From Candidatus Methanophagales archaeon (GTDB lineage Archaea; Halobacteriota; Syntropharchaeia; Alkanophagales; Methanospirareceae), in the NCBI GenBank assembly GCA_025435355.1, contig JANJFQ010000008.1, forward strand, positions 1 to 33,031: a stretch of DNA of 33,031 bases, written 5' to 3'. Every line of letters begins with the position of its first letter. The first letter of the stretch is position 1. The position numbers were made by a program, and so were the translations under genes. Of the stretch, positions 21,901 through 31,539 are shown in pieces. The notes below the pieces were generated by a model that had not been told where the DNA came from, ran no database searches, and saw only the letters and a list, made by a program, of their open reading frames with translations.

Positions 21901-21977
21901 TTGCTTACATTACTGTGCTCGTTTACCGCTGAGCACGCAGAGAACACAAGAGAGTCAATATTTGTTCCCCGCACAAC

Positions 21978-21997
21978 ATATCAAATATATTTGAAAT
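21978..21997. promoter_or_regulatory. Orphan ArsR-type operator
   Basis: ATATCAAATATATTTGAAAT matches the 20-bp palindrome at 31508-31527 in 19 of 20 positions. It lies 78 bp after the GDT1-family gene. Downstream on the plus strand GTGAGG precedes an ATG at about 22031, but the frame stops after six codons, so the gene it once governed may be lost. Confidence 0.6.
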
Positions 21998-22209
21998 ATC
22001 AACCTGATTTTTCCAGTTAAGTGAGGCGCGTATGCAATATTCAAAAATGTAGTAATCCTGTAAATTATGCCTTCCCCGTTCCTTCCCCTTTATATGCTTT
22101 TCCCTTTCAGTTCACGAAGTATGCAATTTTAATTACGAAGAATTATGCCCAAAATTTCACTACTTTTCATTTTTAGTTCTAACGGTTGAAACAATTTTTG
22201 GTATATTTC

Positions 22210-22235
22210 CGTGAAAAACCGAAAATCATTTTATA
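22210..22235 (+). promoter_or_regulatory. Promoter-like module shared with 20353-20378
   Basis: CGTGAAAAACCGAAAATC then ATTTTATA. It agrees with the module at 20353-20378 in 23 of 26 positions, differing only at two bases in the middle and one before the TATA box. The A-rich part upstream of TTTTATA fits an archaeal BRE plus TATA box. If used, the transcript of the exported protein (22471) would have a leader of over 200 nt containing the palindrome at 22263-22276. Confidence 0.45.
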
Positions 22236-22470
22236 CGTCATCCCATAGTTATTATTGATGGTTACCTTATAAGGTACTGACAAGGGATGCCGAATGAGGT
22301 AGTAAATAAACTTCCCCTTTGTGGCCACCCTGCTCAGTATCTTAAATGGGATGAAGAGGCTGAAAATGGCTGGCAAAAAGCATAAAACCAGGAAAAAAAT
22401 GTCCACTCCGTGGTGCGAATCCACGAGCGGGCTAAAGAAGAAGGAAATAATAAAAAAATTGGGGGGTGCT

Positions 22471-23631
22471 ATGGAAAAAATGAAGAAACAAACTTTAGTA
22501 ATGTGTATAGTAGCTATGGTAATACTGATGGTAGTATTGTCGCTGACTGCTGGAATAGGAATTGCAGGACAGGGAGAGGGCGATAAAGCTCAAAAAGGTC
22601 AGGAATACCCTTCGAGTGATTTGACGGATTATGGAGATATGGTTGAGGTTTTCAGAGAGCCGGTCAACGGCATACCCGAATATGATGTAAACGGCTGCGA
22701 AATCCTCGTGAGCGCGATAGATGGTAGCGCGATATGCATGGAATACGACAACGATTCTGGTCACTGCTCAATACCAGAAGGTGCGCCTGTCACAGAAGTC
22801 TCCTTCGGTCGTTTGAATGTTGTCCGGGCACCACCAGAGGTACTGGAAAGCGGATTCGATGAAGCCATAAATGCAATAAACGAGGCAACATATATAACGC
22901 TCGACGCTGGTGGACGCTTACTGTTGACACGACCTGCTGTGGATGCTGATGGTGTTGCGTATGAATACGTAAAGGCAATTGATTCTCCTCGTGAAAATCT
23001 TGCATTATATAATAAACTTATGCTGGATGGACACCTGGAAGGGAATTTAGGCGATGACCCATACGCCCATGTAGGTGACCCACAAGCCGACCCAGTACTC
23101 AGACCCGTATTGGATGTGCCTCACTTCAGTGAAGTGACAGGTGGAACTATGCTTCATCTACTGGATGACGGCGATCCACTTACCCAGGCTGATTTCATGA
23201 GTGCTGCATCGTTCCTGGCAGCAGGTGCAGATAAACCCGGTCATATAACAGTTGACATGGTGTTTTACATGGATACCATTCTGGGTCTCAATACTAAGAA
23301 TGAATACGGAGCTTACGTTACCTACGTGAACTTCGACCCCATGACTTACGCCAGAGAGAACGTATATACCAAAGACGTCTATGTACTCGTTCCGGAATTG
23401 TACGCCGGCGGCAACTGGGTATTCGGACATTGGATACAGGACTATGTTTGGCTGATGAGTTCCGAGTACTCCGGTTATTTAGGGTCTAATCCAGATGTGT
23501 ACACCTGGGACCCTGAGGATCCTGTGTGGCAACCAGCTACCGACGATATTGGAGGATTTGCGCAGGCATCAGATGACGCACTGAGAGTGATTGCCTATAC
23601 ACATGACAATGAGATTCCGCCAGCACCATAG
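22471..23631 (+). CDS. Exported protein of unknown function
   Basis: 386 residues from ATG 22471; Met4 (22480) is an alternative and sits at a better distance from GGGGGTG. Signal peptide: MEKMKKQ, then hydrophobic VMCIVAMVILMVVLSLTAGI, cleavage probably near GIAGQ. The mature part is acidic, rich in Asp/Tyr/Gly, with two Cys near the start (NGCEILV, AICMEYDN, HCSIPEG gives a third). No family recognised. Segments such as DKPGHITVDMVFYMDTILGL and NVYTKDVYVLVPELYAGGNW look like beta-sandwich surface protein. No C-terminal anchor, so it is probably released. A terminator follows, and a metalloprotease lies downstream on the same strand. Confidence 0.65.
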   Translation: MEKMKKQTLVMCIVAMVILMVVLSLTAGIGIAGQGEGDKAQKGQEYPSSDLTDYGDMVEVFREPVNGIPEYDVNGCEILVSAIDGSAICMEYDNDSGHCSIPEGAPVTEVSFGRLNVVRAPPEVLESGFDEAINAINEATYITLDAGGRLLLTRPAVDADGVAYEYVKAIDSPRENLALYNKLMLDGHLEGNLGDDPYAHVGDPQADPVLRPVLDVPHFSEVTGGTMLHLLDDGDPLTQADFMSAASFLAAGADKPGHITVDMVFYMDTILGLNTKNEYGAYVTYVNFDPMTYARENVYTKDVYVLVPELYAGGNWVFGHWIQDYVWLMSSEYSGYLGSNPDVYTWDPEDPVWQPATDDIGGFAQASDDALRVIAYTHDNEIPPAP

Positions 23632-23649
23632 AACGGTATAGAACTCGGA

Positions 23650-23682
23650 GGGAGGGACCTTCCCTTCCCATTTTTATTTTTT
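23650..23682 (+). terminator. Stem-loop plus T-rich tract
   Basis: An 8-bp stem with one G-T pair (23650-23657 with 23661-23668) and a CCT loop, followed by ATTTTTATTTTTT, 18 bases after the stop of the exported protein. Confidence 0.7.
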
Positions 23683-23782
23683 AAAGTTGAGGAGGAATAG
23701 AAACGAATGAAAAAACATTTAGAAAAGCATGCATCTCACTCTATGATGAGATTGAAAAAAGTAGGAGGTGATATGAACAAGA

Positions 23783-24631
23783 ATGAATACAAAAATAATT
23801 TTTGCTATGGTTGTAGTAGGAATCCTACTAACCGGTGTTGGAGCAGCTACATTGCTACCAGTTCCAGATGAAGTAAAAGACAAAGGAAAAGCACCTGAGA
23901 ACGTTCAGGTTATCAAAGCAGTGGAAGATGGTGTATGGGTTCGTATGCCTAACGGAATGGAACGGATGGTTACAGTGCATTACATAGACCAAGATTGCGA
24001 TAAAAACCAACATAGGGATAAGGATCGAGATAGAATAAATCGGAGTAAAGTGAGTCCTGCAAAGCCTGATTGGGTTGACGACAAAAAGGACAAAGATGGC
24101 TGCTACGATTTCTTAGGAAAGGGTGTGCTGTGGAAAAAAATGCCTGTAAGCTACGTAATACATCCTGATCTCAATGCAGATGCCGTTTTTGCAAGTGCAG
24201 AGACGTGGGACGAAGAAACAAATGTTGAACTTTTCAACAATATATACAGTAGTGATTACGATGCGAATTACGATGTGGATAGTCCAGACGGTAGAAACGA
24301 ATTATCTTTCGGTGATTACGAGCAGGATGGAGTTATAGCAGTTGCTGTAGTTTGGGCGTTTTACACTGGAAAACCAGCCAATCGAGAAATTTTTGAGTTC
24401 GACGTTATGCTGGACACTGATTTCTGGTGGAGTGATCAGAAGTCTCCTGGCCTGATGGACATACAAAATATCGCAACTCACGAGTTGGGACATGGACTTG
24501 GATTAGCGGACATCTACTCTGATAGCTGTGATTTCGTAACGATGTATTATGGTAGTTCTTCTGGAGAAATAACAAAACGAACACTCACAACGCATGATAT
24601 AACAGCACTGCATCTTTTGTATGGTGAGTGA
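23783..24631 (+). CDS. Matrixin-like zinc metalloprotease (M10-type), exported
   Basis: 282 residues. Signal peptide MNTKIIFAMVVVGILLTGVG followed by a charged, probably propeptide-like region rich in Asp/Lys/Arg (about 70-110). The catalytic domain starts near GVLWKKMPVSYVIHPDLNAD. The zinc site is HELGHGLGLADIY (HExxHxxGxxD, metzincin form) and the Met-turn is in VTMYYG. It would cleave proteins outside the cell or in the envelope. AGGAGGTGAT (23762-23771) is the ribosome-binding site, ten bases before ATG 23783. A nearer ATG at 23773 is in another frame, part of a 54-codon frame from 23707 that may be a leader or nothing. Confidence 0.82.
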   Translation: MNTKIIFAMVVVGILLTGVGAATLLPVPDEVKDKGKAPENVQVIKAVEDGVWVRMPNGMERMVTVHYIDQDCDKNQHRDKDRDRINRSKVSPAKPDWVDDKKDKDGCYDFLGKGVLWKKMPVSYVIHPDLNADAVFASAETWDEETNVELFNNIYSSDYDANYDVDSPDGRNELSFGDYEQDGVIAVAVVWAFYTGKPANREIFEFDVMLDTDFWWSDQKSPGLMDIQNIATHELGHGLGLADIYSDSCDFVTMYYGSSSGEITKRTLTTHDITALHLLYGE

Positions 24632-24657
24632 GAAATCACTCATTCTTTTTATTTTTT
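24626..24657 (+). terminator. Hairpin plus T tract overlapping the metalloprotease stop
   Basis: GAGTGA (24626-24631) and TCACTC (24636-24641) form a perfect 6-bp stem with a GAAA loop, followed by ATTCTTTTTATTTTTT. The left arm contains the stop codon. Confidence 0.7.
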
Positions 24658-24670
24658 AGTGATTGTATAT

Positions 24671-24694
24671 AAAATCCGTGTAATCCTGTGGTTA
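24671..24694 (+). repeat. Dispersed 24-bp repeat, copy 2
   Basis: AAAATCCGTGTAATCCTGTG followed by GTTA, in the gap between the metalloprotease terminator and the end of the ArsG-like gene. 22 of 24 positions match 16552-16575. Confidence 0.55.
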
Positions 24695-24695
24695 G

Positions 24696-25406
24696 CTAAA
24701 CAAATAAAATAAAATAATAAAGCCCAATTACCACAAAAATCACCCCGATAACGGTTCTTAGCACCTTCTCGAATTTATAAACATTCTGAACGTGTTTGTT
24801 AATTTCCTGTGCGCCGAGATAAAATAAAACTGCGAAAATAATAACAGGGATTCCTGTTCCGAGTCCATAGAATGCAGGTAATATTATACCCTCGCCGGAG
24901 GCGAGTCCAAGCGGTATCAATGCACCGAAAAATAAAACTGCACTGTAAGGACAGAACGCTAAGGCAAATAGAGCTCCTATGAAGAATGCACCTATCAATC
25001 CGGAGTCAGCGGTTTTTTTGCTCAGTTTCTCTGTAATTCTTCCACTACCAACAGTAAAATTGAAATGTATACTACCTATCATAAAGAGCCCGGATATAAT
25101 CAAGATAACACCTAAAATTTCACCGTGGATGCTCTGGACTGTAAGTGAGAGGTCTATCACATTCATGCCAATTAAAATTATACCCGCGCCTAATACAGAA
25201 TATGTGAACGTGCGTCCGAGAGTGTAAACGAGTCCATTTAAAGGTGTATGATCAGGATTTTTAATATCTCGTGAGATATATGCAATTGCTGCTATGTTCG
25301 TTGCCAGAGGGCATGGACTGATGGACGTTAAAACACCAAGTAAAAATGCAACGAGTATCACAAATTCTGTGTTCGCTATAAAATCCTGTATGACCGATTC
25401 AAGCAT
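24696..25406 (-). CDS. arsG: ArsG-family (CcdA-like) membrane protein
   Basis: 236 residues, six membrane segments. FLLGVLTSISPCPLATNIAA (Cys in SPCPL) and FALAFCPYSAVLFFGAL (Cys in AFCPY) are the two redox Cys sites of the CcdA/DsbD fold. The string SPCPLATNIAAIAYISRD is characteristic of the ArsG branch, named for efflux of aromatic arsenicals. It is the last gene of the ars transcription unit, starting 1 base after the stop of arsF. In this setting it could exchange electrons with the thioredoxin-like ArsE and ArsF or move an arsenical; sequence does not separate the two. Name assigned by resemblance. Confidence 0.75.
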   Translation of the reverse strand: MLESVIQDFIANTEFVILVAFLLGVLTSISPCPLATNIAAIAYISRDIKNPDHTPLNGLVYTLGRTFTYSVLGAGIILIGMNVIDLSLTVQSIHGEILGVILIISGLFMIGSIHFNFTVGSGRITEKLSKKTADSGLIGAFFIGALFALAFCPYSAVLFFGALIPLGLASGEGIILPAFYGLGTGIPVIIFAVLFYLGAQEINKHVQNVYKFEKVLRTVIGVIFVVIGLYYFILFV

Positions 25407-25407
25407 T

Positions 25408-25923
25408 TTAGTCTCCCTTTTTTAGCGCATCCAATTTATTTTTGAATACTTTTATGTAATCCTCTTTATCCCAGACATAATTCCACATCTCAGTTGCATC
25501 TATTATCTCTTCTTTACCATCTTTTATAACGTTAATATAGAGCGAAGAACCCATAACACCATACTTTTTTACTAAAATTATGTTTTCGGGGTCCTGAAAA
25601 TTAACAGTTTCGTAACTTATTTTTCCTGTTTTATAATCCTCTGGAAAGTGTAGTTCTAATGTTTCTTTTGCAAAGTTACCGAGGTTTGCGCATGACGGAC
25701 ACGGACGTGCTGGCTCAAATTTAACAACCTTTATTGACGTTATATTTGCGGGTTCCGGGATTGAAGCCGTAGGTTTTATGTCCTGAGTTGTATTTTGCAG
25801 TGAATTGTTTGTCACCTCATCGTTTTCTTTTTCCGGTTCAATACACCCGCAAAATAAAATCGTTATTAAAATGCCGGTTATTATAATTCCTGCAACCAAA
25901 CATGATTTTTGTTCTTGATTCAT
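25408..25923 (-). CDS. arsF: ArsF-family thioredoxin-like lipoprotein
   Basis: 171 residues from ATG 25923, which overlaps the arsE stop as ATGA; a start 12 bases upstream is less likely. The N-terminus has a membrane segment (CLVAGIIITGILITILFCGC) ending in a lipobox-like Cys, then a Thr/Asn/Pro-rich linker. The thioredoxin-like domain has VVKFEPARPCPSCANLGNFA (CPSC), VNFQDPENIILVKKYGVMGS and SLYINVIKDGKEE, matching the ArsF family (named as a nitroreductase subunit acting on nitrophenyl arsenicals). Exposed on the outer face of the membrane by inference. Between arsE and arsG, as in known arsEFG clusters. Confidence 0.72.
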   Translation of the reverse strand: MNQEQKSCLVAGIIITGILITILFCGCIEPEKENDEVTNNSLQNTTQDIKPTASIPEPANITSIKVVKFEPARPCPSCANLGNFAKETLELHFPEDYKTGKISYETVNFQDPENIILVKKYGVMGSSLYINVIKDGKEEIIDATEMWNYVWDKEDYIKVFKNKLDALKKGD

Positions 25924-26153
25924 TCCAGCACCCATTTTTTTATTTCCTCCGTGTTTGGAATTCTTCCGCTCGCTTTAACCACTCCATTGATAACTACTGC
26001 TGGCGTCATCATTACACCAAAACTTATTATTTTATCTATATCCTCTACTTTTTCAACCTCGGAATCAACACCGAGTTCCTCTACGGCTTTCTTTGCATTT
26101 TCGTATACTTTTCTACATTTCGGACAGCCCGTTCCCAAAATTTTAATCTCCAT
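25920..26153 (-). CDS. arsE: Small thioredoxin/glutaredoxin-like redox protein (ArsE-like)
   Basis: 77 residues: MEIKILGTGCPKCRKVYENA with redox pair Cys10-Cys13, then the cis-Pro motif GVMMTPAVVINGVVKASGRI. This is the compact archaeal redox-active disulfide protein family. Gene order (E, F, G) and the 4-bp overlap with the next gene support the ArsE assignment. A paralogue with a C-terminal zinc ribbon lies at 29982-30398 and a remnant at 28828-28908. The ribosome-binding site is poor, so expression may depend on the upstream MtrA-like gene 36 bp away. Confidence 0.78.
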   Translation of the reverse strand: MEIKILGTGCPKCRKVYENAKKAVEELGVDSEVEKVEDIDKIISFGVMMTPAVVINGVVKASGRIPNTEEIKKWVLE

Positions 26154-26189
26154 TTTTTTGTTTCTTGATAGGTTACTATATTATTATAT

Positions 26190-26471
26190 TTAGCCCTTCT
26201 CCTCCCCCAGCATCTCTGCCAAATATCTGATGTTTGGGTTTGCAACCAGGTTACACACCATCTTTTCTATCCCGATGTTCTCAGTTTGAAGCATCCCTGC
26301 CAAAGCCGCGCCTGCATCCAAAGCTATCATCACAAGCTCTTCAAGCTCACCGGGTATATTAAAGTCAAATGTATTGAGTATAACGCATACCGCAACAGGC
26401 GAATAGTCATTCCCTCTTGCGTATCTCCCTTCCTCCGGTGGGTATTCCTCAGGTGGCTTTACTTTAAGCAT
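26190..26471 (-). CDS. MtrA-like corrinoid-protein fragment
   Basis: 93 residues. EYPPEEGRYARGNDYSPVAV, then LDAGAALAGMLQTENIGIEK and MVCNLVANPNIRYL match the N-terminal two thirds of the MtrA cytoplasmic domain (methyl-tetrahydromethanopterin:CoM methyltransferase subunit A). Homology ends at about MtrA residue 73 and the frame closes with AEMLGEEKG, just before the segment that carries the cobalt-coordinating His84. No membrane anchor. So corrinoid binding in the MtrA manner is not expected. GAGGTAA seven bases before the ATG suggests that it is still translated. First sizeable gene after the ArsR-type operator, upstream of arsEFG. Either decayed or recruited for another task. Confidence 0.75.
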   Translation of the reverse strand: MLKVKPPEEYPPEEGRYARGNDYSPVAVCVILNTFDFNIPGELEELVMIALDAGAALAGMLQTENIGIEKMVCNLVANPNIRYLAEMLGEEKG

Positions 26472-26476
26472 ACTTT

Positions 26477-26569
26477 TTACCTCGCTATCGGATTATCTAA
26501 AGCCCCCCTTAAAGAGCTGACTTCTTCCGGGATTCTATCCTTTCCCTTCACCCCCATTTCCTTTCTCAT
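26477..26569 (-). CDS. 30-residue leader ORF at the arsEFG promoter
   Basis: MRKEMGVKGKDRIPEEVSSL followed by RGALDNPIAR. The ATG is just downstream of the operator at 26575-26594 and about 35 bases from the TATA-like AAATATAACA, so it would be the first codon of a nearly leaderless mRNA. The ribosome-binding site of the MtrA-like gene spans its stop codon (GAGGTAA), allowing translational coupling. Not recognised; may be a true small protein or chance. Confidence 0.35.
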   Translation of the reverse strand: MRKEMGVKGKDRIPEEVSSLRGALDNPIAR

Positions 26570-26574
26570 TTTTC

Positions 26575-26612
26575 ATTTCAAATATATTTTAAATATCTTA
26601 TGTTATATTTAG
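26575..26612 (-). promoter_or_regulatory. ArsR-type operator and TATA box for the MtrA-like/arsEFG unit
   Basis: ATTTCAAATATATTTTAAAT (26575-26594) differs at one base from the perfect palindrome at 31508-31527. On the minus strand AAATATAACA (complement of 26601-26610) lies six bases upstream, in the position of a TATA box, so the operator would cover the transcription start. This is the same arrangement as at the permease promoter. Confidence 0.65.
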
Positions 26613-26648
26613 GTAGGAGGTAAATTTGAAATAAATTATACGAGGCGA

Positions 26649-26990
26649 TTATAGCGATTTTTTTATCTCTGCGATGACTTCTAAAACCTCTTTTCCTAAT
26701 TCCGTCAGGCTATATATTATAAATTTACCTTTTTTCCTATAATCCACTAATTTCGCCTCTTTAAGTAGTTTCAGATGGTAAGATAGTGCTGAATATTTTT
26801 GATCCGTCACTTCAACAAAAACGCACACACAGAAGTCGTCGGCATTCAATGCCTTTAATATCCCTATTCTGATCGGATCAGACAAGACCTTGAAAATAAA
26901 CGCTATGTCTTCAACGTCCTCTTCCACGAGACTCCTTACTTTTTCTAATATCTCCGATGATATGTCATAAGAAGGCGGTATTGCACGCAT
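26649..26990 (-). CDS. arsR: ArsR/SmtB-family metalloregulator
   Basis: 113 residues. Winged-helix core: FKVLSDPIRIGILKALN, then DDFCVCVFVEV and the recognition helix YSALSYHLKLLKEAKLVDYR, followed by a beta wing KKGKFIIYSL. Cys54-Val-Cys56 matches the CVC of the As(III)/Sb(III) site in ArsR (ELCVCDL), although the flanking residues differ. It should repress the ars genes until arsenite binds. Palindromes with the 20-bp consensus flank the gene: one just after it (26575) and a shorter one (27076) before it. No strong ribosome-binding site. Confidence 0.9.
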   Translation of the reverse strand: MRAIPPSYDISSEILEKVRSLVEEDVEDIAFIFKVLSDPIRIGILKALNADDFCVCVFVEVTDQKYSALSYHLKLLKEAKLVDYRKKGKFIIYSLTELGKEVLEVIAEIKKSL

Positions 26991-27075
26991 ATTATATGTA
27001 TTATTTTGGTTATATTAATTTGTAACGCAACGATTAAAACGAGCTTCTGGAGTATCAATGAAGGAGTTATCCATT

Positions 27076-27093
27076 ATTTCAAAAAAATGAAAT
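27076..27093. promoter_or_regulatory. Variant ArsR-type palindrome upstream of arsR
   Basis: ATTTCAAAAAAATGAAAT has the same half-sites (ATTTCA and TGAAAT) as the 20-bp operator but a spacer shortened from 8 to 6 bases. It lies 86 bp before the arsR start and overlaps the end of the small MtrA remnant. The spacing difference makes binding uncertain. Confidence 0.4.
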
Positions 27094-27177
27094 ATTATTG
27101 AGTTTCATGTATTTGCCCTCTTCGGGCGGATATTCTGGCGGTTGTTTTACTTTCCTGATTTCTTTATCGCTTTTCAT
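27079..27177 (-). pseudogene. Second MtrA-like N-terminal remnant
   Basis: 32 codons: MKSDKEIRKVKQPPEYPPEE followed by GKYMKLNNISFF. The part KVKQPPEYPPEEGKY parallels KVKPPEEYPPEEGRY of the gene at 26190-26471, after which the frame runs into an A/T-rich stop. It is a truncated duplicate lying on the other side of arsR. Located 13 bases after the Trx-Trx-CcdA gene. Confidence 0.6.
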
Positions 27178-27190
27178 TCAAATCTTCTAC

Positions 27191-28741
27191 TCATATCCAA
27201 CCTAATAGCAGAGAAATTCCCAGGGCAAGCATTATCACTCCAGAAATCAACCTCATGTACTTTCTGGTTCTAAGCCGCCACTCCTCTGCTCTTTCAACTT
27301 TCAAGTTAGCCCAGTAAATCAGGGTTATCAAAACCAGCAAAGGAGCGGTGCGGAATAAGTTGTACCAGAGGAGATAGAAGGTAGAAGCAGAGTCCACACC
27401 TATTTCTGCCATCGTTGTGATATAACTTAACACCAAACCTGTTGTGCACGGCAGCCCGACCAGGGTGGAGAAGGCAGCGAGGAAGACAGCCGATGGCAGC
27501 GTTGCCCTCTTTGCAAGTTTGTTTATTGTCGGCTTCGTTGAATCAGGAATTTTTAGAGAGAACCACCTTCCAAGCCAGAAGAAGTCCTTAACCATGATGA
27601 GTCCCGCAGCCAGTATAAAAGCCGCAACGATAACCTTCACCTCCCACAGGAAAAAGATAACATCAAAAATGTTAACCAGTCCAAGCATGTAGAGAAAGTA
27701 TATTATGAAAAAGGTCGCAAGAAATGCAAACCCGATCTGTAAGATTTTCCTTCTCTCGCCACCAGCACCAAACAAAACTCCCATCAGGTAAAGAAAGACA
27801 GCGATGACGCAGGGATTCACTCCATCCACAGTTCCTAAGATAATCCCAAGCAGAAGGATATGGGTGCCAAAACCTATCTCTGATTCGAATCCGAGGATTG
27901 AAATCGGGATTTTTCTTTCCTCTTCTGGCGTAATCTCACCCGGTTTTGGGAGATACGGTGTCATCCCTCTGATTTTCCACAGGGGGCAGGGGCATCCTTC
28001 TTTTATGCAACGTTTAACTTCGTCCTCCAGGTTCTCAATTATCGCTCTGTCTCCAACAAGGTATCTGTCGCCAATAAAAGCAGCGGGGAAACCTGCGTAT
28101 TCAAGCCCGTAGAGTTCTTTGAACTTTTCATATAACTCTTTGTTGGTTTCATTTGTGGCTTCGTATTCGTTGATTGTCGCAGTGTACTCCTGCTCCAGTT
28201 GGTCTAAAAGCGGTAGAACTCTCTCGCACTGGGAGCAGTTATCACGTGTAAAAACATGGATACAAAGCTCTTGATGCTCTTCGACTGCTCTCGGTGTCGG
28301 AGTTTGTGTTAAAGTGGGCGTAGGGGTTGGAGTAACACTCAGTGTCGGAATTATCCCCTCTCCTGCATCCGGACATCCATATTGGATGCAATTTTTCACC
28401 AGATCTTCTATCTGCTTTCCTGTGGTTGCGTCCGTGTGGTATCCGACGACGTAATCATTTCCAACGAAAGTGGTTGGAACTCCATGAGGCGGTGGAACGT
28501 CATGGGTTCGTAGAAATTTTTGAAACAGCTCTTCATTTTCTCTGTTATTCCAAGTTTCAAATTCTTTCACTTCCAGTTGCGGATATTTCTGATCCAATTG
28601 TTCTAAAAAAGGTTTTTCTACGACACAGTGGGAGCATCCTTGACCCCAGAAAAAGTAGAGAGTGACGCTGCTGTCAGATGTCTGCGTCGCCGTTGCTATG
28701 GAGATTGCCAAGATACAAAAAAGTATTGTCGCTACTTTCAT
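27191..28741 (-). CDS. Fusion of two exported thioredoxin domains with a CcdA/DsbD-like membrane domain
   Basis: 516 residues from ATG 28741, which has GGGGGTAG five bases upstream; a longer frame adds 17 residues without such a site. Order: signal peptide (ATILFCILAISIATA), thioredoxin domain 1 with FFWGQGCSHCVVE (Cys36, Cys39) and GVPTTFVG cis-Pro, a Pro-Thr linker (TPTPTPTLTQTPTP), thioredoxin domain 2 with RDNCSQCERV (Cys169, Cys172) and GFPAAFIG, then six membrane helices with GVNPCVIAVF and LVGLPCTTGLVL, the paired Cys of CcdA. It resembles DsbD: electrons from cytosolic thioredoxin pass through the membrane to the outer domains. Position between acr3 and arsR suggests arsenic-linked thiol chemistry. 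Confidence 0.85.
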   Translation of the reverse strand: MKVATILFCILAISIATATQTSDSSVTLYFFWGQGCSHCVVEKPFLEQLDQKYPQLEVKEFETWNNRENEELFQKFLRTHDVPPPHGVPTTFVGNDYVVGYHTDATTGKQIEDLVKNCIQYGCPDAGEGIIPTLSVTPTPTPTLTQTPTPRAVEEHQELCIHVFTRDNCSQCERVLPLLDQLEQEYTATINEYEATNETNKELYEKFKELYGLEYAGFPAAFIGDRYLVGDRAIIENLEDEVKRCIKEGCPCPLWKIRGMTPYLPKPGEITPEEERKIPISILGFESEIGFGTHILLLGIILGTVDGVNPCVIAVFLYLMGVLFGAGGERRKILQIGFAFLATFFIIYFLYMLGLVNIFDVIFFLWEVKVIVAAFILAAGLIMVKDFFWLGRWFSLKIPDSTKPTINKLAKRATLPSAVFLAAFSTLVGLPCTTGLVLSYITTMAEIGVDSASTFYLLWYNLFRTAPLLVLITLIYWANLKVERAEEWRLRTRKYMRLISGVIMLALGISLLLGWI

Positions 28742-28827
28742 GAGGACTACCCCCTTCTTGCCAGGATTGCCAGGTTCTCCGAAGCTCATCACGCCTTCCA
28801 GGCGTCTTTTGAAATCGTCTGTCCCCC

Positions 28828-28908
28828 TCAGTTGTTCTTCACCTCTCCTTCTCGGTCGCTTTTACATTTCGCACACGGTGGTGTCGTGCCAAATACTTCT
28901 ATTTTCAC
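28828..28908 (-). pseudogene. ArsE-like redoxin, N-terminal remnant
   Basis: 26 codons from GTG 28908, which directly follows the acr3 stop (TGAGTG): VKIEVFGTTPPCAKCKSDRE followed by GEVKNN. The KIEVFGTTPPCAKCK part equals the redox-site start of small archaeal thioredoxins. The rest of the domain is gone. An inverted repeat ACGCCTTCCAGGCGT (28791-28805) lies between it and the next gene. It shows that a third small redoxin once sat in this operon. Confidence 0.55.
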
Positions 28909-29979
28909 TCAACTAAAGAACCCCCTCGTGCGTTTGCATAGCCATACGAGTGAAAGCATTATCGGAACCTCAGTCAGAACGCCAACGACTGTTGCAAGTG
29001 CCGCGCCGGAATTCACGCCGAATAATGTGGTGGCAACTGCTATCGCAACCTCAAAATGATTGCTGCCAGCGATGATTGCCGTAGGTGCGGCATCCTCATA
29101 CCTCAATTTTATGGGTTTTGAGATGAGATACGTGATTGCGAACACTAATAGGATGTTTGCAACTATCCCAACCGTAATCATACCGATTATCGCTGGCAGT
29201 TCAACCAATTTCTCACCCTGGTAGGTGAAGAGCACTACCAATGTAATTAACAGCGCTATTATTGATATCTTTCCCAAACGAGGAACAAGTTTCTCTTCAA
29301 ACCAGTCCGTACCTTTTCTTTTTATTGTTTGGTCCCTTGTAATCCACCCTGCTATCAAGGGTGTGCAGATGTATATGACTACGGCAAGAGCTATTGTCTT
29401 CCAGGGCACTGCTATGCCAGAGACGCCGATAAGAAATGTAGCCAGCGGAGCAAATAGGAAAACCATTGTCAGAGAGTTTATTGCAGTCATCACAAGCGTA
29501 TGACCCATGTTCCCTTCTGCTAAGTAGCTCCACACAAGGACCATTGCAGTGCATGGAGCCACGCCTAAAAGAATCAATCCCGCTATATATTGCTGAACAA
29601 TAGGTATCTCACCTAAGGGCGTTAGCGTTGCTCCCTGCGGTAAAAACGGTGAAAAAACCACGCCTAAAAATAGCCATGCGAAGAAAGCCATTGTGAATGG
29701 TTTTATCGCCCAGTTCATGAACAATGTGGTGGCTATTGGTTTTGGCGTCCTGATCGCCTTCCTCACTTCTCCAAAGCTAATTTGAACCATTATTGGGTAT
29801 ATCATGGCAAACAGACAGATAGCAATGGGGATAGAGATATGAGCCACTTCCAATATTGCCAGAAGTTCCGAAAGCTGCGGGAATGTCCTGCCAAGAATTG
29901 TGCCTGCAAGTATGCAGATTATAACCCATAAAGTGAGATATTTCTCCCAGATTCCAAGTTTTCTTTCTTTTTTCTCCAT
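28909..29979 (-). CDS. acr3: Acr3-family arsenite efflux transporter
   Basis: Exports As(III) using the membrane potential. 356 residues with ten predicted membrane helices, normal length. YLTLWVIICILAGTILG, then MIYPIMVQISFGEV and ATTLFMNWAIKPFTMAFFAW are N-terminal family marks. LILLGVAPCTAMVLVWSYLA contains the conserved Cys needed for transport, and TAIIAGSNHFEVAIAVATTL is the second signature with its Glu. Third gene in the island, two bases after the thioredoxin stop, so co-transcribed with it and with the permease. A remnant redoxin frame starts at its stop codon. Confidence 0.95.
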   Translation of the reverse strand: MEKKERKLGIWEKYLTLWVIICILAGTILGRTFPQLSELLAILEVAHISIPIAICLFAMIYPIMVQISFGEVRKAIRTPKPIATTLFMNWAIKPFTMAFFAWLFLGVVFSPFLPQGATLTPLGEIPIVQQYIAGLILLGVAPCTAMVLVWSYLAEGNMGHTLVMTAINSLTMVFLFAPLATFLIGVSGIAVPWKTIALAVVIYICTPLIAGWITRDQTIKRKGTDWFEEKLVPRLGKISIIALLITLVVLFTYQGEKLVELPAIIGMITVGIVANILLVFAITYLISKPIKLRYEDAAPTAIIAGSNHFEVAIAVATTLFGVNSGAALATVVGVLTEVPIMLSLVWLCKRTRGFFS

Positions 29980-29981
29980 AT

Positions 29982-30398
29982 TCAGCTTTTCTCCTCACAT
30001 TCGAAGCAGTATTCCTTCCCTGTGTTACTTAAAAATTCACGCCCGCATCCCTTGCACTTCACTCTATAAAGTGATGACTCCTTCTTAGTCTTCCTTGCCC
30101 GCTCCTGAAGGTAGTAAAGGCATGCGCACTGTTCTTCCACCTTATTCTTTCCTGTTCTTCCTGAAATCCAATGCTCTATCTCATCCTTCAAGGGAACCCT
30201 TCCTGTTGACATAAGCTCGTCATCCACAAAGACCGCCGGTGTTACCATAACTCCACGGTCTATAATCTTATCAATATCAGAGACCTCTACAACTTCTGCA
30301 TCCACTTGCAAATCCCGAATTACTCCCTCTACCAACTTTTTTGTTGCCCTGCACTTAGGACAGCCCGGTCCCAAAACTTCTATAATCACCTTTCCCAT
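29982..30398 (-). CDS. Thioredoxin-like protein with C-terminal zinc ribbon
   Basis: 138 residues from ATG 30398, one base after the permease stop; a start at 30419 would overlap the permease. The redox domain reads MGKVIIEVLGPGCPKCRATK (CPKC) and GVMVTPAVFVDDELMSTGRV with cis-Pro. It is fused to an extra region with QCACLYYLQERAR and then VKCKGCGREFLSNTGKEYCF with ECEE, two CxxC pairs that look like a zinc ribbon. The ribbon may bring arsenite or a partner to the redox site (inference). Coupled between permease and acr3. Confidence 0.8.
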   Translation of the reverse strand: MGKVIIEVLGPGCPKCRATKKLVEGVIRDLQVDAEVVEVSDIDKIIDRGVMVTPAVFVDDELMSTGRVPLKDEIEHWISGRTGKNKVEEQCACLYYLQERARKTKKESSLYRVKCKGCGREFLSNTGKEYCFECEEKS

Positions 30399-30399
30399 T

Positions 30400-31506
30400 C
30401 TACCGTACAACACCTCCATATATCGTTCCCATTACTGTCGAGATGATTATAACCAGAGCAAAGTAGATACCAGCTCTTCTCGCTCCGATTGTCCTCCATA
30501 TCACGACCATGTTCGGCAAGCTTAGAGAAGGTCCTGCGAGCAGAAGTGAGAGTGCAGGTCCAGAAGCCATCTGCCCGGTGGTGTAGCCGAAAAGATCCCC
30601 AACTATCGGAACTTCCAATAACGTTGGCATATACAATATCGCACCGATTATGGAAGAAATAAAGCAAGAGAAAAAGGAGTTGTTTCCAAAATAGGGTTTC
30701 ATTATCTCCCCTACTGCAATTTGAGGGTCATGAGTGGGAGCATAAATCGCAGCAACACCTCCTAATATACCTATGGCGAATACGCCTACCAAAAGAATAG
30801 GGAATATCATCTTTGCGAGCCACCATGTCTCCTTTCCCCATTCTTTCACCTCTTCTCGGGAATAGTATAAAATCAGGATAATTGATCCTATCGTCATGAA
30901 AGAGAGGGCTGTGAGTTTCGTGACCCAAGAGATTAACCCAGACGCTCCAACGAGGAGTATCGCCACTAAAAGGCTAAAAAACAGCAAAGTGATATACCTG
31001 GGTCTTCCCACCTCTGGGTCATAAGTCATGGCAGCCACTCTAACAACTTTCTTCTCCTCTACCTTTGCGCCTCGCTCAAATATCGCCGCCATGCTCAAGC
31101 CTATCACCACGGACATCAAAACAGCACACACCGCCCTCGCAATCCCTATATTCAGACCGAGAACTCTTGCTGTAAGAACGAGAGCAAGAAGGTTTATCGC
31201 CGGTCCCGAATATAAAAAAGCAATGGCGGGTCCTATACCCGCACCCCTTCTGTAAATACCTGCGAACATCGGCAGTACCGTGCAACTGCAAACTGCGAGA
31301 ATAGTTCCTGAGATGGAAGCAACACTGTAAGATAGCCATTTTTTCGCTCCCGCACCAAAGTATTTTAGTATAGCCTCCTTAGATAAAAGAGCAGCAATTG
31401 CACCGGCTATGAAGAAAGCCGGCACTAAACATGTCAGAACGTGAAGTGAGAGGTATTGCATCAGCGTATCCACGCCCGCCCTCAGAATTTCGTCTACCCC
31501 GTCCAT
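30400..31506 (-). CDS. ArsP/DUF318-type permease
   Basis: 368 residues, about ten membrane helices. VSASISGT-like SVASISGTILAVCSCTVLPM, then FAGIYRRGAGIGPAIAFLYS and GPAINLLALVLTARVLG are the permease family (PF03773) signature; the CSC pair fits ArsP-like members that export organoarsenicals. The second half repeats the pattern (MPTLLEVPIVGDLFGYTTGQ, ASGPALSLLLAGPSLSLPNM). The family also includes two-Cys membrane proteins of unknown substrate, so the ArsP role rests on context. First gene of the island; its ATG lies two bases after a perfect palindromic operator and about 29 bases after a TATA box, implying leaderless mRNA repressed by ArsR. Confidence 0.82.
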   Translation of the reverse strand: MDGVDEILRAGVDTLMQYLSLHVLTCLVPAFFIAGAIAALLSKEAILKYFGAGAKKWLSYSVASISGTILAVCSCTVLPMFAGIYRRGAGIGPAIAFLYSGPAINLLALVLTARVLGLNIGIARAVCAVLMSVVIGLSMAAIFERGAKVEEKKVVRVAAMTYDPEVGRPRYITLLFFSLLVAILLVGASGLISWVTKLTALSFMTIGSIILILYYSREEVKEWGKETWWLAKMIFPILLVGVFAIGILGGVAAIYAPTHDPQIAVGEIMKPYFGNNSFFSCFISSIIGAILYMPTLLEVPIVGDLFGYTTGQMASGPALSLLLAGPSLSLPNMVVIWRTIGARRAGIYFALVIIISTVMGTIYGGVVR

Positions 31507-31507
31507 T

Positions 31508-31539
31508 ATTTCAAATATATTTGAAATACTTATTTAAAG
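31508..31539 (-). promoter_or_regulatory. ars island promoter with perfect 20-bp ArsR-type palindrome
   Basis: ATTTCAAATATATTTGAAAT (31508-31527) is a perfect palindrome placed between the TATA box CTTTAAATA (complement of 31531-31539) and the ATG of the permease (31506). A bound repressor would block the start site. Two near copies (26575, 21978) and a variant (27076) occur elsewhere in the window. Confidence 0.75.

Follow-up and report, generated by a model that had tools for sequence, protein, structure and literature searches.

ArsR/SmtB-family proteins bind inverted repeats that lie over bacterial promoter elements (PMC5658604, PMC4562236). Bacterial ArsR operators, for which the consensus ATCAAN6TTGAT has been quoted, are inverted repeats located within the promoter or immediately ahead of the ars start codon, beside an arsR gene encoding a CVC motif (PMC9137774). 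In Bacillus sp. CDB3, a 22-bp inverted repeat precedes the ars1 operon, and binding of ArsR was shown and found to be impaired by arsenite (PMC4562236). SmtB/ArsR operators of the 12-2-12 type and TtSmtB of Thermus thermophilus likewise place the repressor over core promoter elements, which in the case of TtSmtB include the bacterial -35 box; release is by metal or arsenite, and the targets can be dispersed (PMC5658604). Does an element of this kind exist in ANME-1 archaea? Arsenic detoxification genes in ANME-1 have been mentioned in passing (PMC9576274), and our literature search found no paper on archaeal ArsR operators in this group.

Here we analyse a 20-bp palindrome in a stretch of 33,031 nucleotides (hereafter the window) from a Candidatus Methanophagales archaeon. 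Like the bacterial operators, it is an inverted repeat just before ars start codons and beside an arsR gene with a CVC motif, and its core, TCAA-N6-TTGA, fits the bacterial consensus (PMC9137774). With its flanking bases it resembles the 22-bp repeat of CDB3 ars1; in that bacterial promoter binding has been demonstrated (PMC4562236), and at the archaeal site it is predicted. It also differs from bacterial ArsR operators in residing in archaeal TATA-type promoters (PMC9137774), in being longer and more uniform (20-22 bp, with TTTCAA half-sites), and in recurring before TauE, DUF169 and MtrA-like genes. Unlike the TtSmtB site, it lies downstream of the TATA box; release by metal or arsenite, as in TtSmtB, is predicted here (PMC5658604). 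The palindrome thus appears to be an archaeal example of a familiar class of element, and its conservation supports this well.

Results

The palindrome is confined to three sites in the genome scanned

The palindrome ATTTCAAATATATTTGAAAT is perfect at 31508-31527 and carries one mismatch at 26575-26594 and at 21978-21997. A shorter variant of 18 bp, ATTTCA-N6-TGAAAT, is found at 27076-27093. A preceding sequence-only reading had listed these four sites, and its coordinates and mismatch counts are all correct. At up to three mismatches the window holds three matches, against 0.01 expected, and the next closest carry six. A scan of the whole genome (2.16 Mb, 227 contigs) at the same threshold returned only these three sites and none for the reversed palindrome, a count from which further sites may be missing, as the genome is 82% complete. 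Occurrence at chance frequency, or before unrelated housekeeping genes, had been named beforehand as evidence against an operator; with no other site and a control of zero, the palindrome withstood this test in this genome.

The sites and the promoter elements beside them are as follows.

31508..31527, minus strand: predicted operator 1, perfect 20-bp palindrome (22 bp with flanking T/A), 1 nt before the arsP ATG
31531..31538, minus strand: TATA box TTTAAATA of the arsP promoter, matching the archaeal TATA consensus used at 8/8 positions
26575..26594, minus strand: predicted operator 2, one mismatch, 54 nt past the arsR stop codon
26604..26611, minus strand: TATA-like box TAAATATA of the second promoter, upstream of 26575
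21978..21997, minus strand: orphan palindrome, one mismatch, probable relic of an acr3 promoter by its flank match to locus L088
27076..27093, no strand: 18-bp palindromic variant, without a TATA box and without support as an operator

Genes of the arsenic island

Besides arsR, the island holds arsM, arsP, acr3, a gene for an ArsE-family thioredoxin, and DsbD-like and thioredoxin-like genes. Four of the products (ArsM, Acr3, the ArsE-family thioredoxin and the regulator) score above the curated thresholds of their NCBIfam models. From arsP to arsR the genes run in one direction behind the site at 31508. This site would govern a first unit (arsP, thioredoxin gene, acr3, redox gene, arsR), and the site at 26575 a second (truncated mtrA, arsE, thioredoxin gene, dsbD). 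The proposed members and two short frames are listed below.

30400..31506, minus strand: arsP-type permease (ArsP_1), first gene of unit 1 (Pfam PF03773, 1.7e-61)
29982..30419, minus strand: thioredoxin-like gene with a C-terminal zinc-ribbon-like tail, unit 1 (ORF; similar to the neighbouring Thioredoxin_3 gene and to relatives)
28909..29979, minus strand: acr3 arsenite efflux transporter, unit 1 (NCBIfam TIGR00832, 371 bits against a cut-off of 283; Pfam SBF)
27191..28792, minus strand: membrane protein with tandem glutaredoxin/thioredoxin-like domains, unit 1 (Pfam PF00462; start codon uncertain)
27079..27177, minus strand: 32-codon frame KVKQPPEYPPEEGKY, a remnant (read from the sequence; resembles the start of an MtrA-like gene, compare ORF 26190-26471)
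26649..26990, minus strand: arsR, 113 aa, CVC at residues 54-56, last gene of unit 1 (Pfam HTH_5, 4e-9; NCBIfam HTH_metalloreg; family tree)
26477..26569, minus strand: 30-codon frame MRKEMGVKGKDRIPEEVSSLRGALDNPIAR, remnant or leader (read from the sequence; resembles the start of a radical-SAM protein, compare L068 4810-6219)
26190..26471, minus strand: truncated MtrA-like gene, 93 aa, unit 2 (Pfam MtrA, 1.5e-17, 73 of 173 positions)
25920..26153, minus strand: ArsE/MTH895-family thioredoxin-like gene, unit 2 (NCBIfam TIGR00412, above cut-off)
25408..25935, minus strand: secreted, lipoprotein-like thioredoxin-like protein, unit 2 (ORF; no match in a Pfam search; neighbour conserved in relatives)
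24696..25406, minus strand: DsbD/CcdA-like membrane protein, last gene of unit 2 (Pfam DsbD_2, 1e-22)

The second unit opens with gene remnants, first the 30-codon frame and then the MtrA-like gene: in a same-genus genome an MtrA-like gene (L104 3772-4647) encodes 291 aa, against 93 aa in the window. The order arsR, site, second unit recurs in genomes G049, G001, G002 and G017, and an arsR gene followed by a site after 38-54 nt is found in five genomes of three genera. At the second operator, spacing and sequence are identical in the same-genus genome (L104 3658).

Several neighbouring genes were recorded in passing. In the same-genus genome, the genes immediately before arsR (L104 2-3180) encode a molybdopterin enzyme, nearest to thiosulfate/polysulfide reductase, and a DmsC/NrfD-like membrane protein. 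For the molybdopterin enzyme next to arsR in G049, a role in arsenate respiration was considered and found no support, its best match being thiosulfate/polysulfide reductase. In G001 acr3 and arsR are separated by genes for an aldehyde ferredoxin oxidoreductase and a ThiS-like protein (L067 8328-10443). At the other end of the window, the translation of 15-2114 reads by eye as the C-terminal part of a ribonucleotide reductase preceded by an intein-like region.

Promoter layout

Minus-strand TATA boxes were found just upstream of 31508 and 26575, which bears out the proposal that two of the sites lie between a TATA box and the first codon of an ars transcription unit. In archaea, about 25 nt separate the centre of the TATA box from the transcription start, so the start is expected to fall inside the palindrome or at its edge. 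The order TATA box, palindrome, ATG suggests that the palindrome covers the TATA-to-start region and that the leader is very short. The stretch between TATA box and start is the classic place for blocking polymerase. The core TCAA-N6-TTGA is exact at 31508 and at 21978, and the site at 26575 has TTTA in one half-site. The sites at 31508 and 26575 lie over core promoter elements of ars genes; those at 21978 and 27076 do not. An arsenite efflux gene, the acr3 equivalog, is part of the arsP unit behind 31508.

The 27076 variant is present as an 18-bp palindrome, as first described, and its proposed kinship with the operators found no support. It has a TATA box on neither side and overlaps the 3' end of the 32-codon MtrA-like remnant frame, and it was not recovered near arsR of the same-genus genome, where the best matches in L104 carry four mismatches and are non-palindromic. 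We therefore rejected it as an operator; it is probably not one.

The palindrome across ANME-1-type genomes

In 51 genomes of the ANME-1-type family we found 29 sites at up to one mismatch and none with the reversed palindrome. The carrier genomes are related and their sites share ancestry, so these are not independent counts. At three mismatches the family counts resemble the reversed control, which gives 14, and sites at that level were set aside as background. Seven further genomes of the class, outside the family, have no site at up to one mismatch. Family sites precede arsP in many genomes, with an operator in this position in at least eight related genomes; the other genes behind them are acr3, arsR2, Trx-TauE, TauE, DUF169-MtrA and mtrA. 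In one case at up to one mismatch, the gene behind the site encodes a multihaem cytochrome (L075), whose link to arsenic is not obvious. Many of the palindromes stop a few nucleotides short of the start codon. At 26 of 33 sites the 18 nt upstream on the gene side contain a TATA box, and AAACCTTTWTATA is its typical form; on the opposite side none of the 33 sites has one, and by the same test 7% of random intergenic positions do.

ArsR was detected in 16 of the 19 site-bearing genomes and in 8 of the 32 without a site (16/3/8/24; Fisher p 5e-5, relatedness of the genomes uncorrected). Genomes G008 and G014, both incomplete, have a site and no detected ArsR; in G004 and G009-G012 an ArsR is present and no site at up to one mismatch was found.

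The ArsR proteins

The product of 26649-26990 had been read as an ArsR with a CVC metal site, and Pfam, NCBIfam and the family tree confirm it as an ArsR/SmtB metalloregulator. Its winged-helix fold is recognised by Pfam HTH_5, above cut-off, and NCBIfam NF033788 (71 bits against 55). Sequence matches in the PDB are SmtB, CadC and ArsR, with Lmo1102, SmtB and CadC as the nearest solved relatives; the closest relatives overall come from MAGs assigned to Methanosarcinales and Methanophagales, one of them labelled ANME1, and on this basis we take the source to be an ANME-1-type archaeon. The C-x-C metal box of helix 3 is present as DFCVCVF, and CVC is kept in 30/30 family homologues. The protein has just two cysteines in its 113 aa and thus lacks a third for trigonal As(III) binding, which is unnecessary for membership of the wider ArsR/SmtB family. 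From work in E. coli, an arsenite response with two cysteines is plausible.

Family ArsR proteins fall into two subfamilies: a short type that includes the window protein (ArsR1) and a longer type with extra cysteines (ArsR2). Both are encoded in the window's genome, on C81 and C224, and the C224 protein is 52% identical to the window ArsR with a similar recognition helix. Its own cluster (G000:C224, L106), with the order arsR2, thioredoxin gene, secreted thioredoxin gene, dsbD, shows 77% DNA identity to window 24709-26161, and its promoter is lost at the contig end.

Discussion

The presence, rarity, conservation, promoter layout and gene association of the palindrome were established by computation. 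The same layout of TATA box, palindrome and start codon before ars or ars-linked genes across ANME-1 argues that the palindrome is very probably the operator of an ArsR/SmtB-family arsenic repressor, governing two units in the window. Could it instead be part of the promoter proper, or a spacer that was inherited and copied together with arsP promoters? Many sites do stand in homologous arsP promoters. This alternative is nonetheless very unlikely: the palindrome also precedes non-homologous genes with differing flanks, has no further match in the genome at up to three mismatches, and fits the ArsR consensus. Which regulator owns the operator is a closer matter. The sequence-only reading assigned it to the 26649-26990 protein, and an ArsR/SmtB gene does adjoin the sites; exclusive ownership is the part we would modify, as the second ArsR (C224) probably shares the operator. 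Either type was found alone in site-bearing genomes and the recognition helices are close, so a shared operator is expected. That the palindrome belongs mainly to ArsR2 seems unlikely to us. ArsR2 is the sole type found in site-bearing G006, G007, G016, G018, G019, G021, G022 and G038, and in G022 it lies directly behind a site; against this, G046 and G047 carry a site with ArsR1 as the sole type found, and ArsR1 is the type embedded in the two-operator arrangement.

The island had been proposed to comprise two or three separately repressed units. We retain the two behind 31508 and 26575 and drop the third, because the site at 21978 lacks a promoter and has the look of a remnant. With 19/20 positions as in the consensus it still matches the motif, yet a role as active operator of a third unit, serving a gene at about 22471 or an unannotated transcript, is very unlikely. 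The nearest candidate gene start is more than 300 nt away, and no TATA box was found on either side (best 5/8). On the minus strand, the flanking sequence TTGTGCGGGGAACAAATATTG is similar to the beginning of acr3 in G021, TTGTGCGGGAACAAAGTATCA, but has one extra base; further on it passes into a repeat that has dozens of copies across the family. Over 38 bp, 21961-21998 is 92% identical to L088 8133-8169, which holds an acr3 start and operator. The 21978 site is thus probably the relic of an acr3 promoter. An intact version of 21901-22320 was also sought, and the search returned mainly dispersed repeat plus the short acr3-promoter match; the repeat, TTTACCGCTGAGCACGCAGAGAACACAAGAG..., at window 21914-21957 has many copies in this genome and in the ANME-1-type family.

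For the two promoters that we retain, we infer binding and release of ArsR, as well as the transcription starts and operon boundaries. An ArsR dimer would bind the palindrome between TATA box and transcription start and keep RNA polymerase off the promoter; arsenite at the CVC cysteines would free it. As the last gene of unit 1, arsR would itself be repressed through the site at 31508.

The additional genes behind the same operator are the less expected part. MtrA-like corrinoid-protein genes occur in ars clusters at L104 3772-4647, L082 447-1337, L085 5956-6831, L073 12849-13343 and L069 17904-18593; three of them share the cluster with a DUF169 gene, and some lie close behind an operator. 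Outside the core ars cluster, a conserved module of operator, Thioredoxin_3 and TauE is found at L071 600-1920 and at L076, L080, L097 and L099, followed in L080 by an Fe-S domain protein. We tentatively consider it possible that the ANME-1 ArsR operator also governs MtrA-like corrinoid proteins, DUF169 and Trx-TauE export modules, wiring arsenic sensing to one-carbon/sulfur chemistry.

With the palindrome as a search pattern, the regulon can be picked out across ANME-1-type genomes, and for a group of archaea not yet in culture there is now a concrete model, open to experiment, of how operator and promoter may be arranged under ArsR control. Genes for MtrA-like, DUF169 and TauE proteins emerge as likely to respond to arsenic; if this is true, arsenic sensing would be tied to one-carbon or sulfur chemistry in these methane oxidisers.
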